Source: a virus. From it: a stretch of 30,499 nt of DNA. The position numbers and the translations under genes are program-made. Positions within the stretch are counted from its first letter, which is position 1; each line of letters opens with the position of its first letter. Under the pieces are notes generated by a model that made no database searches, was not told the origin of the DNA, and was given only the letters and a program-made list of their open reading frames with translations. Positions 10,334 through 20,566 of the stretch are shown in pieces. The stretch covers positions 1-30,499 of IMG/VR virus record IMGVR_UViG_3300031598_000016, one strand, 5' to 3'.

Positions 10334-10363
10334 AATATACCACTTTTTTTCATTATAAGTCAA
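10334..10363 (-). promoter_or_regulatory. Sigma70-like promoter of the nuclease gene
   Basis: Minus-strand -35 TTGACT (10358-10363) and -10 TATATT (10334-10339) are separated by 18 bases. It resembles the promoters at 13254-13283 and 18548-18577 in both hexamers and spacing. The -35 overlaps the last codons of the Mom-like gene. The bases after the -10 are CAGAT then ATG, so initiation six bases downstream would fall on the A of the ATG. Confidence 0.7.
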
Positions 10364-10992
10364 GCCTTTTTTAATCTTTTTATCTTCTTTTTAATACCCT
10401 TATTCAAATAATAAACATATTTGTTTTTACTCTTTCTCTTCTTAAAGAACACATCAGGATCCTTTGCTTCCCATCTTGAACGTATTCTTCTACTGTATGG
10501 TTTCATTGGTTGGCTTAGAGACCTACTATGATACTCCTTACCATCAACCATCAGAACTCTACCTGCGCCAGTCTCACCAAGAAACTCAAAGTTACTAGCT
10601 CTGTAGATAACACCTGTATGTCCATGATGTTTATCTGCAAATGAAACAATGACTTCATAATTTGTATTCTGTTTTAACCATTTTATAGTTTGAGATATAA
10701 AGAAACTCTCACTATTCTTAGGCGATTCATCTAAACAGACTAATCTTCTTAGTTCGACACATCTATCAGGATTTATAGGATTGTATGCTTTTGCAGTATT
10801 TGGCATAGAAGGTATAGCATACATCATAGCACCTACCATTCTTGGTATACCAAACTTACCTGGTGAGAATAGTGCGAAACATTCTAAACCTTGTATTCCG
10901 TTAGTGCTATGGCTATAGTGATGTTTAGCTATAAACTCTTGTATAGCCATTCGGGGAACTAACTCAACTGTGTAGTCTTTGAAATCAGCCAA
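10360..10992 (-). CDS. Mom-like DNA-modification protein (GNAT fold), copy 1
   Basis: The 210-residue protein resembles the Mu Mom family, GNAT-fold enzymes that add a methylcarbamoyl group to adenine in phage DNA. Visible features are KHHYSHS (residues 23-29), CVELRRLVCLDESPKNSESFFISQTIKWLK, a VSFADKHHGHTGVIYRASNFEFLG segment, and a very basic C-terminus (about 175-210) suited to DNA binding. The start is a TTG at 10992: it keeps the first strand of the fold and overlaps the gp62 stop by eight bases. The next Met (residue 15) would remove that strand. It is not closely similar to the second Mom-like gene at 14468-15232. DNA modification is inferred from family resemblance; substrate and base are not shown. 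Confidence 0.7.
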   Translation of the reverse strand: MADFKDYTVELVPRMAIQEFIAKHHYSHSTNGIQGLECFALFSPGKFGIPRMVGAMMYAIPSMPNTAKAYNPINPDRCVELRRLVCLDESPKNSESFFISQTIKWLKQNTNYEVIVSFADKHHGHTGVIYRASNFEFLGETGAGRVLMVDGKEYHSRSLSQPMKPYSRRIRSRWEAKDPDVFFKKRKSKNKYVYYLNKGIKKKIKRLKKA

Positions 10993-14135: not shown

Positions 14136-14471
14136 TTATGTATTTGTCAACTGAAGTAAAATAATCATCAATGCTAATCCTAAACATATAAATGTTTTTG
14201 TATTTGGAATTTCATTTAATAATCCCCAAGTCATTAGTGCAAATATTAAATTACCAAGACCAAATCCTATCAATCTGATATTCCACACGTAACCAAAATG
14301 TTCATATGAGAATCTCGTTGAATAGTAGAATAGATAACTGATTGGTAATCCTGCTAAAACTATCCACCATTGAGATTTCATAAATTCCCATCTGAATTGA
14401 CCATTCATGTGAAAGAATGCTATTATGTGTCCTACTACACTAAGACCAATTGCTACTAATAACTTATTCAC
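14136..14471 (-). CDS. Small integral membrane protein with four predicted helices
   Basis: The 111-residue product has four hydrophobic stretches at about 4-20, 34-51, 63-84 and 91-108, separated by short polar loops with conserved-looking aromatics (NGQFRWEF, RFSYEHFGYVW). It would lie in the host inner membrane. The start is GTG at 14471, overlapping the TGA of the Mom-like gene as GTGA, so translation is probably coupled to that gene. It could be a transporter-like, anchoring or exclusion protein. The sequence does not decide. Confidence 0.7.
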   Translation of the reverse strand: MNKLLVAIGLSVVGHIIAFFHMNGQFRWEFMKSQWWIVLAGLPISYLFYYSTRFSYEHFGYVWNIRLIGFGLGNLIFALMTWGLLNEIPNTKTFICLGLALMIILLQLTNT

Positions 14472-15232
14472 AATCTATTCTCCACTTCAATCTCATCTAT
14501 TGGGGGAAGATATTTTTCAGCGTTTGTTGGATATGGTTTTAGTTCGTATTTCAAATTTTTCATATATTTTTTGTTTTCTTTTCTATTTCCTATAAAATAG
14601 ATATAACGGTGCTTTTCTGGCTCTTTTCTTCTCCAAAAAGTGTGTCCCACAGCAGCCTTTAACTTTTCTATGTTATGGCTTCCAAAAGTTGCTGATACTG
14701 TTCTACTATGTATCCACTCATATGGTTCTTTGGTTAATGATATTGAATGATTTGGCATAAGATTCAATCCTGCTCCTTGATATAACCAATTGGTAGCTTT
14801 ATAAATACCACCTAAGTGTAATCTATCAGGATCTGCATAGCTGATTAGTACCTTAACATCTTTATCCCACTTTTTTAACCATTTGAATGATTGTGAAATA
14901 CAATAAGATTCTATATTCTTACCATAATCATCGTGGATGAATAATCTTGTCAACTCCAAAATATTTTTTGTTTGTAAGATTTCTTCATCTTTGAACATAG
15001 ATTTCATAACCGATCTTCCTACAGGGTAGCCATAAGTCATACAACCAATAAGTTTTTCTTCAATCATATCCTTAAAAAAAGGATGTGGATTTTCTGACTT
15101 ATAATATATACCTATGGCATACCTACAAGAAGAGAACTTGTGCGAATAATGATTTTTTATAATCATTCTTTTCGCAGTTTTCTTGTCTATCTCTTGCAGA
15201 TAAACTTTTGATTTATCTACATATTCTTCCAT
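14468..15232 (-). CDS. Mom-like DNA-modification protein (GNAT fold), copy 2
   Basis: This 254-residue protein shares the Mom-type pattern: IIKNHYSHKF (about 24-33), IGCMTYGYPVG, ILELTRLFIHDDYGKNIESYCISQSFKWLKKW, and VLISYADPDRLHLGGIYKATNWLYQGAG. The C-terminal region is basic (about 200-240). Compared with copy 1 it is longer and differs at most positions outside these motifs, so it is a diverged relative and not a recent duplicate. Its ATG overlaps the gp45 stop (TAATG), placing it at once downstream of the clamp. The expected role is acetyl- or carbamoyl-type modification of DNA bases or a related small-group transfer. The substrate is unknown. Confidence 0.65.
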   Translation of the reverse strand: MEEYVDKSKVYLQEIDKKTAKRMIIKNHYSHKFSSCRYAIGIYYKSENPHPFFKDMIEEKLIGCMTYGYPVGRSVMKSMFKDEEILQTKNILELTRLFIHDDYGKNIESYCISQSFKWLKKWDKDVKVLISYADPDRLHLGGIYKATNWLYQGAGLNLMPNHSISLTKEPYEWIHSRTVSATFGSHNIEKLKAAVGHTFWRRKEPEKHRYIYFIGNRKENKKYMKNLKYELKPYPTNAEKYLPPIDEIEVENRL

Positions 15233-15963
15233 TAGTCTACAGTAGTTTTAGCCACTAATACGTAACTTGAATCGAAATTATCTACCTTAAAACTAACCTT
15301 AGCCAACCCTTGACTTGAAACATAAAGAGTTGCTGATTCACAATCTTTATTTGCAGTTAGAACTTCTTTGAAAGTATCTGCATCAAAATAGATAGCATCA
15401 TCAAGAGAAGATATTTTCTTAGCTTCTACAGGAATAGTTACCTTATTTGATTGTGTGGTTGAACTATAACCAATAACTATCTTTGCTTCTTCACCATCTG
15501 ATAATATTGCGAAAGTAGAAACATCACTCAAAGCACCTTTACCTGATATAAAAGAACTGATAAATTGTTTATCTATCTTTAGTTCTAAATCAAAATCAGG
15601 AACATTTGACAAATCTGGTTTTTTTGAAACCACATCAAGACGTGCTAATCCATAATTTACTTTAGTGTTATTGCTCTTTTGACTAATAACCAATTGAGAC
15701 ACAACATCACCAACTTCATTAGCTTCAACAACCAACTCTCCATCCAAGACATTAAGTAACTTGATTAAGTCTTGTATCTCATAGAGACCCATTTCATAAT
15801 CACCGAAACCATTCTTAGATAGAACAATATCACCAACACAACTTTTTGCTGAATTGATGAATGAACAACTAAGAGTATCTTTTGTTGAAACTATAGGGGC
15901 AGATTGTGTCTGACCGCCCAAGTAAAACCTGTTGACAAATCCCATCAACGTTTGTTTATCCAT
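15232..15963 (-). CDS. 45: Sliding clamp (T4 gp45-like)
   Basis: The 243-residue protein fits the T4 gp45 trimeric clamp family in length (T4 is 228), in its acidic beta-rich repeats (GDIVLSKNGFGDYEMGLYEIQDLIKLL; KIVIGYSSTTQSNKVTIPVEAKK) and in its position just after gp43. It tethers gp43 to DNA and in T4 also activates late transcription. The ATG at 15963 has AAGGAG at 15971-15976, seven bases upstream, and its own candidate promoter at 15988-16016. gp43 ends in FGFNKFF, a plausible clamp-binding tail for this protein. Confidence 0.9.
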   Translation of the reverse strand: MDKQTLMGFVNRFYLGGQTQSAPIVSTKDTLSCSFINSAKSCVGDIVLSKNGFGDYEMGLYEIQDLIKLLNVLDGELVVEANEVGDVVSQLVISQKSNNTKVNYGLARLDVVSKKPDLSNVPDFDLELKIDKQFISSFISGKGALSDVSTFAILSDGEEAKIVIGYSSTTQSNKVTIPVEAKKISSLDDAIYFDADTFKEVLTANKDCESATLYVSSQGLAKVSFKVDNFDSSYVLVAKTTVD

Positions 15964-16018: not shown

Positions 16019-18520
16019 TTAAAAGAATTTATTAAAACCAAAATCATCATTTGGTTCTTCCCACTTTAATGCTTCGTATAACATCTTAATTTTCTTAGCT
16101 AATGCTTGTTTATAGATTTTATCCGTATCAATATATTGTTTTATATAATCCAATACTTCTTTTGGGTCTTCATGACCTTTATAACACAAAGTATCAAATT
16201 TCAACGGATTGTCTTTTAAATAAGTCCACTTAATTTTTTCTCCATTACCAACTGCAGGATATTTTTTATTTAATTTATTGATAACTAAAAAGTTATTATA
16301 GTTTATTGCTGACTTAACATGAACAGGAGCTCCTTTTTTTGGAGTTATAAAACCATCAGTAATTTGAACAAACTTTTTCACATTTTTAACTGAAGTTGGC
16401 ATTGCTATCGTGTCATATTTTTTTAACTTCATAGATTTCTTAAAGTTAAGAATAAACTCATTAATCTTTAACATTGGAACACCAGCTAATATATCTTCCA
16501 ATACCTTAGTTAGACATTCCTTGAATGCTCCAGGGAAACTTGAACGAACTATATCTAAACCTTTTACATGAAGTTTATTTACCTTAACACCATTATCATT
16601 GATAATCTTCATACCATATCGTTTCTTAGTAACAAATAAACCACTTTTAGCAATCAATTCCTGCTTAATCTCAAACCTATGTTTATCTATATTACAAAAC
16701 TTCTTAGCAAATAAGTCATATGAATTGTTAAGATACTTTTGAACCTCTGATGCAATCTCTAATATTTTACTTGTCATCAACGTTTCATCTTTGATGTCTA
16801 CGTGTGGGTATTTCTTCTGAATGATAGGAATAGCAGAATAGAAAACTGAATCTGTATCGATGTATATACAATAATCCTTTTTATCTCCCACTATTGAATT
16901 GTAGAAATGATTAGACATCCTCTTAGTATATTTAATCAACTCAACACCTGTTGTGGTAGTTGCTTCTGCATTATCTAAATCATAGAAACGAAATATAGGT
17001 AATCCCAACACACCATACAATGAGTTTAGAACAACCTTTTGAATGTATTGTCGTCTATCAAAGTATGCATATTTCTCTTTATCACCTTGATCAGCAAACT
17101 TCTTAGCTAACTTTCTAAACTGAACTCTATCATTAAACCAATTTTCTAATAATGTTGGTATTAAACCTTTTCTATCTTGTGTGTATAATATACCATTTGA
17201 AGATACAGAAACGTTGTGAGTTTCTAAAAAGTTCTTGAACTCACTTGTAGTTAGTTTAGCACTATCTTTACCATTCTTATCTTTAATACTGTATGTTCTA
17301 TCTACACCTTTAAGAAATGGTTCTACATCCCAACTATCTAGCTTACCCAACTTAGTTTCAGGAGATATATTTAAACTCATAATGATAGATGGATACATAC
17401 TTGTAATATCTAAATCATATACCCATTCGTGTTTACCCTTTTGTGGATCCTGAACATATGCACCTGCAAACTTATCTTTACCATCCATCAACTCTCTGTT
17501 TGCTCTTATTTTATTTGGTGCTACAATACCAATCTTTTTCAGATATACAAGAATAGCACCCTCAAGAAATCGTGACGAGTAATAAACATCTTCATAAGGA
17601 ACGTGTCCCAAATGACATATAGCCCTAGCAATACCGATGAAATCTAATTTTGCATCAAGTTTTTCAAGAATAAGAACGTCATTTATATTATATTCTACAA
17701 ATCTGTTTCTATCACCATCATATAACTCATTAAGTGTTCCCTCATAAGATACTTTATTTATACCAACTTCTAACTCACCAATATCATCTAATCGATATGA
17801 AGACCTCTCACCAAATGTAAGTTTTCTATATAACTCAAGATAATCAAGTGAAGCCACACCCGCAATCTTATATGTTCCTTTATATTTTTGCCATTCTACT
17901 ATACCGATTGGTGATAGACAGTTTGCAGTTTGTTGTCCTAATAATCTTAGGGTGCGATTATAAAGATAGGGAACATCAAATCTATCACTATTCCAACCAC
18001 TAATGATTGAAGGTGATATCTCAAGATATTTTGTAAAAAATGCAGTCAGTAGATCTCTCTCATCTTTGAACTTAATAACAGTTGTTTCACCAAACTGATT
18101 TGCATTAACCTTATTTTCTTTGTCAAGAACATAACAATAATATTTTCGTGTTAAAGCGTCATAAAATGCAATAGATGTGATTGTATTTTCAGCTTTACTT
18201 ACATCAGGAAAACCTTGCGTAACCTCAACCTCAATATCAAAAAACATAACACGATGACCCTCAGATACCTCATCCGAATCTGTATAGTTATCAACCAAAT
18301 ATCTAATCTCTGGCGCAACATCAGATTCAAAAGGTGTATCAGTTTCATCTATTCTACTGATAGGTAGCTTACGTAACTTATCACCATACAATGATGTATG
18401 AGTTCCCTTACCGTCTTTTACGTAGGCGTATTGACTGAAAGGTACAACGGAGTATCCTTTTTTGTCATCCCAAATATGTATTCTTCGTCTTTTAAATTGA
18501 TAAAAGATGTTTTGATATAT
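16019..18520 (-). CDS. 43: Replicative DNA polymerase, family B (T4 gp43-like), probable ATA start
   Basis: The full product is 833 residues, with 3'-5' exonuclease and polymerase domains. Visible motifs are Exo I FFDIEVE (D95, E97), Exo II WNSDRFD (D179), Exo III YNINDV (D281), motif A DLDITSMYPSII (from D369), motif B KVVLNSLYG (495-503), motif C YIDTDS (D555, D557), KKRYGMK, and a clamp-binding-like tail FGFNKFF. The first ATG/GTG/TTG-type start in frame is the TTG at 18391, which would cut off a conserved N-terminal strand region (IHIWDDKKGYSVVPF then YAYVKDG, leading into LYGDK). Between an in-frame stop and that TTG the only well-placed start is ATA at 18520: AAAGAGG lies seven bases upstream and a promoter starts transcription about 20 bases upstream. 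An AUA start is therefore inferred. Confidence 0.95.
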   Translation of the reverse strand: MYQNIFYQFKRRRIHIWDDKKGYSVVPFSQYAYVKDGKGTHTSLYGDKLRKLPISRIDETDTPFESDVAPEIRYLVDNYTDSDEVSEGHRVMFFDIEVEVTQGFPDVSKAENTITSIAFYDALTRKYYCYVLDKENKVNANQFGETTVIKFKDERDLLTAFFTKYLEISPSIISGWNSDRFDVPYLYNRTLRLLGQQTANCLSPIGIVEWQKYKGTYKIAGVASLDYLELYRKLTFGERSSYRLDDIGELEVGINKVSYEGTLNELYDGDRNRFVEYNINDVLILEKLDAKLDFIGIARAICHLGHVPYEDVYYSSRFLEGAILVYLKKIGIVAPNKIRANRELMDGKDKFAGAYVQDPQKGKHEWVYDLDITSMYPSIIMSLNISPETKLGKLDSWDVEPFLKGVDRTYSIKDKNGKDSAKLTTSEFKNFLETHNVSVSSNGILYTQDRKGLIPTLLENWFNDRVQFRKLAKKFADQGDKEKYAYFDRRQYIQKVVLNSLYGVLGLPIFRFYDLDNAEATTTTGVELIKYTKRMSNHFYNSIVGDKKDYCIYIDTDSVFYSAIPIIQKKYPHVDIKDETLMTSKILEIASEVQKYLNNSYDLFAKKFCNIDKHRFEIKQELIAKSGLFVTKKRYGMKIINDNGVKVNKLHVKGLDIVRSSFPGAFKECLTKVLEDILAGVPMLKINEFILNFKKSMKLKKYDTIAMPTSVKNVKKFVQITDGFITPKKGAPVHVKSAINYNNFLVINKLNKKYPAVGNGEKIKWTYLKDNPLKFDTLCYKGHEDPKEVLDYIKQYIDTDKIYKQALAKKIKMLYEALKWEEPNDDFGFNKFF

Positions 18521-18527
18521 AGCTATA

Positions 18528-18534
18528 CCTCTTT
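18528..18534 (-). promoter_or_regulatory. Ribosome binding site deciding the gp43 ATA start
   Basis: AAAGAGG on the minus strand ends seven bases before the ATA at 18518-18520. No ATG, GTG or TTG lies within normal reach in the polymerase frame, so this site supports ATA as the initiation codon. Confidence 0.7.
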
Positions 18535-18547
18535 AATTTGATGTGTG

Positions 18548-18577
18548 AATATACGAATAAAATAGTATATAAGTCAA
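18548..18577 (-). promoter_or_regulatory. Sigma70-like promoter of gp43
   Basis: Minus-strand -35 TTGACT (18572-18577), 18-base spacer, -10 TATATT (18548-18553). The 15 bases TTTATTCGTATATTC at 18547-18561 are identical to those of the HAD-gene promoter. It starts just after the RNR stop codon and gives a leader of about 20 bases that contains the gp43 Shine-Dalgarno. Confidence 0.75.
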
Positions 18578-18580
18578 GCT

Positions 18581-20566
18581 TTATTTTATTTCTTCGCCTG
18601 GTATTTCACAAGAATCGTTATTACAGAATTTATCTATTTCTGCTTCTTCGTTTTTGATTACACCGAAGGTAAGTTTACCAAGTTTTTTAATTTGACTATT
18701 GTATGTCTTCTCATCAATAGCTTCATACGGCATTTGTTTGTAAGCACCATAATCGTGTCTTGGTAATAGTGAAATACCTTTCAAATGATATTGAAAGTAG
18801 TTTAAAGCAGGTGCTATTTCATCAGCTTCTGTTTTAGGATCGAATGTTACTGTACAACTTACTTGATTGTCAGCCCAATGTCTTTGCATAAATGCTGCTA
18901 AACTGAACTGTTCCCATATAGATAACTCACTCGCAGTTCTTATACCCTCACCTACATCAACAGGAACTTCAACAACCATTGTCGTATCTTCTGAACCAAA
19001 TGCAGGTTCTAACTTATAACCTGCTTTTTGTAATGGTTCTATTAATTCTGAATGCTTTGAAAGTCTTACTCTCCTAGTATAGAAACGGCTTTCGGGATAA
19101 TGTAAGCCTGGAGTAGCACCAGCCAATAATGAGACTGTACCACTTGGTTTAACTGAAGTAGTTTTAATGGAACGTGGAATAGCAAACCAATCACTATACA
19201 TCTTATCCCATTCTTGTATTGTGTCATAGCCATTCTCCAACCAATTTTTAAACTCATCTAAACCACGATTAGTAACAAACTGAGCAACACCACTTACACT
19301 ACAACCTATTCTACGATTTCGTAACATAACTCTGTTAGTGTCTGACCAATGTGTTCTACCAAGTGTTACCGATTTGGCATACAGATAAGCATATTTTAAT
19401 GTTCTTTGATAATCCTCTAACGAATCGTGATTGTTTGGAAATGTCTCTACTAAACAACACAACTCATATGATTCAAGTGATTGTTCAAGACAAGGATTAC
19501 CACCCATAACTCTATGGTCTTTGTTATCTCCACCGTTTTTCATACGAGAATACGTTCTCATATTTTCTAACCAAGCAAAACCTGGTTCACCATTGTCTAC
19601 GATTCTTTTTGCAGCTTCTGTATAGTCCATACCAAGTTCTGCAAAGATAGAGTTATTAGATGTCCAACCATACATTTCTCTGTGTGGATTTACTTTATAA
19701 TTCTTTAAGTCTAAGTATTCTTCTGACTCGGGATCACCAAAAACTATTTCAGCTGTTCTACGAACATTACCTGCTACGACACATTTACCGATAAGATTCA
19801 TTATATCTACGATCGTAGTTACTGTAATTGGTTCTCCACTATTTTTCTCTAATACACCTGTGACACTTTCGTGAACTTCTTTTAATGGTTCGGGGCCTGA
19901 ACTCACTCCACCAAAACCTTTGATTGGTTCACCTGCAGCTCTTACTAAACTATAATCAAATTTTATAGAACCTGCACCATGAAAATAACTTTCTAATAAT
20001 AGTCTAAGTGATTCTACCCAACCCTCTCTTGTATCAGGAATTTCAAATATTTCTTCATTTCTATCACGATTTACACCTTTGACTACTATTTCACCTGCAC
20101 CCTTACAATCAAATCCAACACCGACACCTAACATAGAGGCATCCATGAGGAAACAGAATGGTTTTGAGTAATCTTCTTTAATTGTTTTAGTGGATACGAA
20201 TGCACAGTTATTTAATGCTGCATATAATCCTTTTTCTTCTGTGATTGCTGTTCCCATAGCCCATAAACCACGGCCAGGAGGTAAGAATTTCATATTAAAA
20301 ATTCTATCATACATTTCTTGTGCTGATTTTTGAGCTTGCCATGCATTCCAACCTAACTGATAATTATCAATATGGTTTTTTTGCATTGAGTATGTTCCTT
20401 CTACAACTCTTTGAACCGTTTCCCACCATCTCTCATTTTTACCATCTTCTTTGAGACGTGAGTAGGTTCTCATATAAACTAATTCACCTAAACCATTAAA
20501 ACCAAATGGTGCTTTCTTTCTCTTATACTTACTAACAAAATTTTCCGATAACTTAAACTTTTCCAT
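18581..20566 (-). CDS. nrdJ: Adenosylcobalamin-dependent ribonucleotide reductase (class II, RTPR-like)
   Basis: The 661-residue enzyme reduces ribonucleotides to deoxyribonucleotides using a B12-derived radical. Catalytic residues align with Lactobacillus RTPR: NNC (C121, for C119), NPCLE (C359, for the thiyl-radical C408, with N357 and E361) and C370 (for C419; the 11-residue spacing is identical). The C-terminal pair C648-x4-C653 corresponds to the swinging C731/C736. It is shorter than RTPR (about 739 aa). No nrdA/nrdB-like gene is in the window. The start ATG at 20566 has an AGAGGAG site about 11 bases upstream, rather far. It lies between gp41 and gp43, so dNTP supply is co-encoded with the replisome; the host must supply cobalamin. 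Confidence 0.93.
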   Translation of the reverse strand: MEKFKLSENFVSKYKRKKAPFGFNGLGELVYMRTYSRLKEDGKNERWWETVQRVVEGTYSMQKNHIDNYQLGWNAWQAQKSAQEMYDRIFNMKFLPPGRGLWAMGTAITEEKGLYAALNNCAFVSTKTIKEDYSKPFCFLMDASMLGVGVGFDCKGAGEIVVKGVNRDRNEEIFEIPDTREGWVESLRLLLESYFHGAGSIKFDYSLVRAAGEPIKGFGGVSSGPEPLKEVHESVTGVLEKNSGEPITVTTIVDIMNLIGKCVVAGNVRRTAEIVFGDPESEEYLDLKNYKVNPHREMYGWTSNNSIFAELGMDYTEAAKRIVDNGEPGFAWLENMRTYSRMKNGGDNKDHRVMGGNPCLEQSLESYELCCLVETFPNNHDSLEDYQRTLKYAYLYAKSVTLGRTHWSDTNRVMLRNRRIGCSVSGVAQFVTNRGLDEFKNWLENGYDTIQEWDKMYSDWFAIPRSIKTTSVKPSGTVSLLAGATPGLHYPESRFYTRRVRLSKHSELIEPLQKAGYKLEPAFGSEDTTMVVEVPVDVGEGIRTASELSIWEQFSLAAFMQRHWADNQVSCTVTFDPKTEADEIAPALNYFQYHLKGISLLPRHDYGAYKQMPYEAIDEKTYNSQIKKLGKLTFGVIKNEEAEIDKFCNNDSCEIPGEEIK

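Follow-up and report, generated by a model that had tools for sequence, protein, structure and literature searches.

A predicted AUA start on the gp43 polymerase gene of a T4-like phage and its alternation with other start codon and Shine-Dalgarno combinations

The gp43 locus and its predicted start

We analyzed a 30.5-kb virus record (IMGVR_UViG_3300031598_000016), referred to in its whole length as the window. Pfam analysis identified T4-like replication genes on the minus strand, and the products assigned were a RecA-like protein, a 5'-3' exonuclease, a DnaB-like helicase, a B12-type ribonucleotide reductase, a family B polymerase, and an AAA clamp-loader ATPase. The T4 gene names used for window genes are labels that we assume to apply; the product of 15232 to 15963, which has no Pfam match, is presumably gp45-like. 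The gp43 product matched DNA_pol_B (PF00136, E = 1.5e-35) and DNA_pol_B_exo1 (PF03104, E = 2.3e-20). The features around its gene are as follows.

18581 to 20566, minus strand: B12-type ribonucleotide reductase gene, upstream of gp43, with an ATG start
18548 to 18577, minus strand: putative sigma-70-like promoter, TTGACT-18-TATATT (10 of 12 consensus bases; recurs in relatives)
18533 to 18535, minus strand: in-frame stop TAA, five codons upstream of the AUA
18528 to 18534, minus strand: Shine-Dalgarno sequence AAAGAGG, seven bases before the ATA
18518 to 18520, minus strand: predicted AUA start codon, aligned with ATG, TTG, ATT, and ATC starts of relatives
18514 to 18529, minus strand: putative hairpin GGUAUA[GCUA]UAUAUC, a predicted fold covering part of the Shine-Dalgarno sequence and the AUA
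18389 to 18391, minus strand: TTG codon of Leu44, taken as the start by the ORF caller and rejected here
16019 to 18520, minus strand: gene for the gp43-like family B DNA polymerase, 833 aa from the AUA, stop included (Pfam and alignment with relatives)
15232 to 15963, minus strand: putative gp45-like sliding clamp gene, downstream of gp43, with an ATG preceded by AAGGAG, in contrast to gp43

The minus strand reads TAA (18535-18533) AGA GGT ATA GCT ATA (18520-18518) TAT CAA AAC ATC, and the frame from this second ATA is open over 833 residues up to the stop at 16021-16019. An earlier note, made from the window alone, had stated that no canonical start lies between the in-frame stop and the TTG at 18391. 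Reading of the frame confirmed that ATG, GTG, and TTG are absent from this interval, and also confirmed the 833-residue product and the seven-base distance from AAAGAGG to the ATA. The paired Shine-Dalgarno core is GAGGU (AAAGAGG plus the T at 18527), located 6 bases before the AUA, with a duplex energy of -7.2 kcal/mol against the anti-Shine-Dalgarno sequence. In other members with the window's leader type, the upstream in-frame stop is TAA or TGA. At the strong promoter proposed in the same note, TTGACT-18-TATATT is present, and relatives also carry TTGAC and TCGTATATTC in their leaders, with a variable spacer between them. However, promoter-like matches in the scanned stretch were fewer than in shuffled sequences (9 versus an average of 16.5), so the scan by itself is no proof of a promoter.

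Elsewhere in the window, positions 14468-15232 (minus strand) encode a Mom family protein (PF25680, E = 2.6e-48), which suggests DNA modification, and the product of 10360-10992 appears similar to it by eye.

Scanning viral contigs at the protein level identified 55 loci, five of which lack the N-terminus. In the 50 readable loci, the aligned start codon was ATA in 20, ATG in 20, and TTG in 10, followed by a conserved YQxI...WDD segment. The gp43 N-terminus was collinear with those of relatives from the start codon on, and in Microcystis phage Mel-JY01 the annotated polymerase (46.5% identity) begins with ATG at the position of the window ATA. The leader pattern GAGGTATAG-NN-NTN-TAYCARAA, in which the first and third codon bases were left open, matched 25 stretches, comprising 23 gp43 genes and two unrelated sequences. 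ATA was found in all 23 gp43 matches, which lay on contigs from many metagenomes. Since the same codon recurs in many contigs of relatives, a sequencing error at the ATA was rejected. Among 13 members of the ATA clade, the start was always ATA, and of 27 invariant isoleucine columns, only one was fixed as ATA and three were fixed for a single codon; as several of these members are near-copies of one another, the argument is a mild one.

Translation might instead start at the TTG at 18391, the first ATG, GTG, or TTG in the frame, which would yield a 790-aa polymerase lacking 43 N-terminal residues. We regard this as very improbable. The Leu44 codon is TTA, which is not a start codon, in 7 of 12 close relatives of the window's clade, and the TTG was rejected as a start on this ground. 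Five of eight representatives have no ATG, GTG, TTG, or CTG within the first 60 codons, and relatives with an ATG or TTG start carry it at the ATA position, not at that of the TTG. Moreover, most change in codons 2-43 is synonymous (347 synonymous versus 165 non-synonymous codon differences, summed over pairs of the eight representatives), in a proportion like that of the gene body (2750 and 1464), which also argues against a start at 18391.

There is likewise hardly any chance that a changed code reads AUA as Met or that the phage encodes an initiator tRNA or IF3 of its own. Where the window gp43 has an internal ATA codon, the aligned residue in other sequences is Ile in 780 cases and Met in 132, indicating an ordinary code. 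Neither Rfam nor tRNA scans detected anything in the window, the tRNA genes of a 216-kb relative are those for Glu, Tyr, Ala, Cys, and Thr only, and the IF3 C-terminal domain was detected in none of nine phage records, all of these being records that may be incomplete.

Judging from these comparisons, it is close to certain that the AUA at 18520-18518 is the gp43 start. This start had been proposed in the earlier note and is supported by the ATG or TTG found at the ATA position when the gp43 N-termini of sister lineages were aligned, by the conserved ribosome-binding site and in-frame stop, by the mainly synonymous change in codons 2-43, and by the loss of the alternative TTG in relatives. With ORF callers restricted to ATG, GTG, and TTG, the N-terminus of gp43 genes of this kind will be truncated or misplaced, as happened in the window.

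Start codons and leaders across relatives

Four further protein and profile scans extended the set to 272 sequences searched (271 loci and the window). A recognizable N-terminus was present in 248, of which 138 were distinct by the last 30 leader bases and the first 150 gene bases. The starts of these distinct forms were ATG in 58, TTG in 44, ATA in 22, ATT in 13, ATC in 1, and GTG in none, so that 36 of 138 were near-cognate (ATA, ATT, or ATC); since some contigs contributed several loci and the sequences were collected from near relatives, these counts are not population frequencies. Four forms counted as ATA (L128, L165, L306, and L318, the last from the contig of L128) are ambiguous: each also has a TTG in frame, four codons further upstream, which overlaps its Shine-Dalgarno sequence. 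A second pattern scan, blind to the leader and start codon and unable to match the window's own clade, gave at least 118 matches and at least 89 distinct forms among the matches listed. Among these listed matches, the distinct forms were ATG in 44, TTG in 29, ATT in 8, ATA in 6, ATC in 1, and a Met-Ala form in 1, with near-cognate starts in 15 of 89.

We then compared gp43 with control genes. No ATG, GTG, or TTG was found between the upstream stop and the N-terminal anchor motif in 14 of 131 gp43 sequences, a conservative count because a Met just before WDD is taken as a start, versus 0 of 325 distinct control ORFs (gp45, 97; gp44, 97; fam4, 47; nrdA, 25; fam6, 15; gp62, 21; fam10, 23). Sequences without the anchor motif had been dropped (gp43, 1; gp45, 45; gp44, 6; fam4, 9; nrdA, 24; fam6, 31; gp62, 10; fam10, 2). 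In the 216-kb relative, 7 of 214 ORFs had no canonical start in the first 25 codons, and these were gp43, an ORF at a contig end, four minus-strand ORFs, and one 107-aa ORF. A search of this relative for a Shine-Dalgarno sequence followed by an ATH codon found two genes, versus one to four for control codon sets. The 107-aa ORF (G001:C1:193326-193649, plus strand, on the 216-kb contig that holds L016) lacks ATG, GTG, and TTG throughout its first 45 codons and carries an ATC behind AGGA; it is either another near-cognate start or a spurious ORF.

The history of the start codon was examined on a FastTree tree of 115 gp43 proteins from which the start residue had been removed. The five start codons require 36 changes on this tree, and near-cognate versus canonical requires 20; counting strongly supported branches only, ATA must have changed at least 8 times and ATT at least 11 times. 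Near-cognate starts are scattered over the tree, where gains and losses are indistinguishable, and ATA rows are more clustered than shuffled labels, whereas ATT rows are not. Over the last 45 leader bases, L059 is 91% identical to the window, with gp43 proteins that are 61% identical, and the 99% identical proteins of L156 (ATG) and L160 (TTG) lie behind leaders that are 38% alike. These sequence comparisons suggest that leader exchange is part of the start-codon history, as if the gp43 leader were a frequent exchange site. L108 and L109, like L156 and L160, have nearly identical gp43 proteins and quite different leaders.

Several searches bore on the host. The photosystem families searched for were absent from all nine phage records, and the window gp43 had no match in genome contigs. 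A gp43 profile found 10 loci in genome contigs, two of them of the window gp43 family (59% and 54%) and both with ATG; these two lie in MAGs called Flavobacteriales and Pelagibacter and are too weak a basis to name a host. Beside one phage gp43, a gene for a TonB-dependent receptor-like protein was observed (L272:145-2886, plus strand), with Pfam plug, barrel, and carboxypeptidase-like domains. The ORF family of this protein near gp43 in other loci has 27 members, and its Pfam scan covered the L272 copy only. The gene is unusual phage cargo and possibly a clue to the host.

Start codon, Shine-Dalgarno core, and leader structure

The Shine-Dalgarno core was defined as GGAG, GAGG, or AGGA at -15 to -5 and scored in 140 leaders that differ from one another between -30 and +12; this set omits the window and any locus with fewer than 40 bases upstream. 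The core was present in 15 of 15 ATA, 13 of 13 ATT, 29 of 45 TTG, and 1 of 3 ATC leaders, and in 0 of 64 ATG leaders, which cannot be counted as independent because many are of one type. In gp43, strong start codons and Shine-Dalgarno cores thus exclude each other, and the three ATC leaders fit this exclusion less well. Duplex energies agreed: all 35 near-cognate forms with enough leader reached -5.9 kcal/mol or better, versus a median of -5.5 for ATG (p = 7e-13, without kinship correction). Of 13 phylogenetically independent near-cognate/ATG pairs, an average of 12.7 had the core with the near-cognate start and none showed the opposite (sign test, p = 0.0002, n = 13). In TTG versus ATG pairs, the core was with TTG in 9.7 of 16 and never the reverse (median p = 0.002), and near-cognate versus TTG pairs did not differ significantly (3.4 one way, 1.0 the other).

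By contrast, the gp45 clamp gene combines ATG with a core in 92 of 104 forms, as it does in the window (AAGGAG). Together with the ATG result for gp43, this gives indirect support to the suggestion of the earlier note that the AUA could limit polymerase synthesis. In other ATG control genes, the core was found in 24 of 114 (gp44), 12 of 41 (gp62), 2 of 26 (fam10), and 1 of 15 (Mom-like); over all controls the count was 131 of 300, with nrdA and fam4 giving no rows and standing outside these totals. Since control ATG genes are often without a core, its absence is neither rare in itself nor unique to gp43.

These counts bear on the possibility that the AUA is a start without regulatory meaning, the outcome of drift in an AT-rich phage with a host tolerant of weak starts. 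The 31% G+C of the 216-kb relative and the frequent use of TTG in gp43 fit such drift. We nevertheless consider it unlikely, because gp43 and control ORFs differ in the absence of canonical starts and because the core is present in all 28 ATA and ATT leaders but in no ATG leader. A competing mechanical reading is that AUA and AUU may need a Shine-Dalgarno sequence simply to work; this explains the ATA and ATT half of the pattern, but not the lack of a core before ATG.

We also folded the leaders. The hairpin of the window was predicted alike in four leaders of its type, in which only the loop differs (z = -2.1, -1.2, -3.3, and -2.3), and the stem was invariant in these four, giving no covariation. 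The ATA leader could be mainly an RNA operator, with gp43 binding a hairpin at the ribosome-binding site and the AUA retained as a stem pair. The common predicted stem with loop-only variation favors this explanation, as does the repression by T4 gp43 of its own mRNA via a leader hairpin, described in a review (PMC3014915). Still, it appears rather improbable: the stem lacks covariation among the leaders folded, and no fold was obtained for L123, an ATA leader of a different type, and none of significance for L168, an ATT leader, so the hairpin is no general reason for near-cognate starts. The hairpin may add control in the window's clade.

ATG-type leaders (L009, L015, L023, L111, and others) share GGGAttTTACAAYCTAAATG at about -18 to +3 and lack a normally spaced Shine-Dalgarno core. 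In 32 of 34 such leaders, two being left out as unlike the rest, no informative covarying pair was found. A similar element occurs about 20 bases further upstream in the ATA and ATT forms L306, L318, L321, L378, and L329, before GGAG and the near-cognate start. This element is possibly a gp43 operator.

Limited initiation and comparison with known systems

The reading that we favor, with a probability of roughly three in four, is that low gp43 initiation, of which the AUA start is one form, is selected across this family of marine T4-like phages and is reached by interchangeable combinations of start codon and Shine-Dalgarno sequence. In the window, translation would start with fMet at the AUA, aided by the well-placed GAGGU, as comparative sequence suggests. 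Use of AUA via fMet-tRNA would involve a third-base mismatch, which IF3 disfavors, and we infer a low yield and IF3 dependence for this start. The weak codon would hold polymerase synthesis low relative to its operon neighbor, the clamp, with its AUG and strong Shine-Dalgarno sequence, and a low polymerase-to-clamp ratio is a plausible reason for limited gp43 initiation. Across the family, the gp43 start region would be selected for a limited initiation rate, and the routes would be interchangeable: AUG without a core, UUG with or without a core, AUA or AUU with a core, and rarely AUC. Each would give a modest rate, and the leader and start codon would be exchanged between lineages as a short module. 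Weak gp43 starts, used repeatedly in related phages, thus probably keep the polymerase scarce.

A more far-reaching version is tentative and rather doubtful. In it, the gp43 start would be a fast-evolving translational rheostat under stabilizing selection, with start-codon strength traded against the Shine-Dalgarno sequence and leaders exchanged as modules; lineages with AUA or AUU would tie synthesis to host IF3 or growth state, in replacement of an RNA operator. Because the exclusion between AUG and the core is clean, simple reporters could test for selection on the initiation rate.

AUU starts that limit expression occur in E. coli infC and pcnB. AUA and AUU starts are known from few bacterial genes and here are found repeatedly in a single essential gene of marine T4-like phages; an abstract-level literature search, covering few subscription journals, found no phage DNA polymerase reported to start at AUA, AUU, or AUC. 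In Staphylococcus aureus, infC, ccpN, and citZ start at AUA and cvfC1 at AUU, with limited expression (PMC13009471). The same study reports that AUA and AUU behind an extended Shine-Dalgarno sequence gave reporter output of ~10% of that of AUG in poor medium, and that the ccpN AUA reached up to 30% of AUG output in rich medium. As in these genes, the window gp43 AUA sits behind a strong Shine-Dalgarno sequence. The S. aureus cases are bacterial genes with measured output, whereas the present one is a phage replicative polymerase known from sequence comparison, and near-cognate gp43 starts, unlike those of S. aureus, recur over many lineages and alternate with ATG without a core.

In E. coli, an ATG-to-ATA change in rpoS gave functional protein at up to 5-fold lower levels, and that report (PMC12864459) cites Hecht 2017 for AUA at up to 1% of AUG efficiency. 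The rpoS ATA is a laboratory mutation, whereas the ATA of the window gp43 is a conserved natural start. The review cited above (PMC3014915) describes autogenous translational repression of T4 and RB69 gp43, in which T4 gp43 binds an RNA hairpin ~40 bases upstream, and states that some T4-related polymerases do not autoregulate. The same protein would be limited at translation initiation in the window, whose leader has only a predicted hairpin, with an invariant stem, whereas T4 has a hairpin operator bound by gp43. Near-cognate starts behind strong Shine-Dalgarno sequences are already known; what appears to be new is the gene, the recurrence, and the exclusion between AUG and the core.
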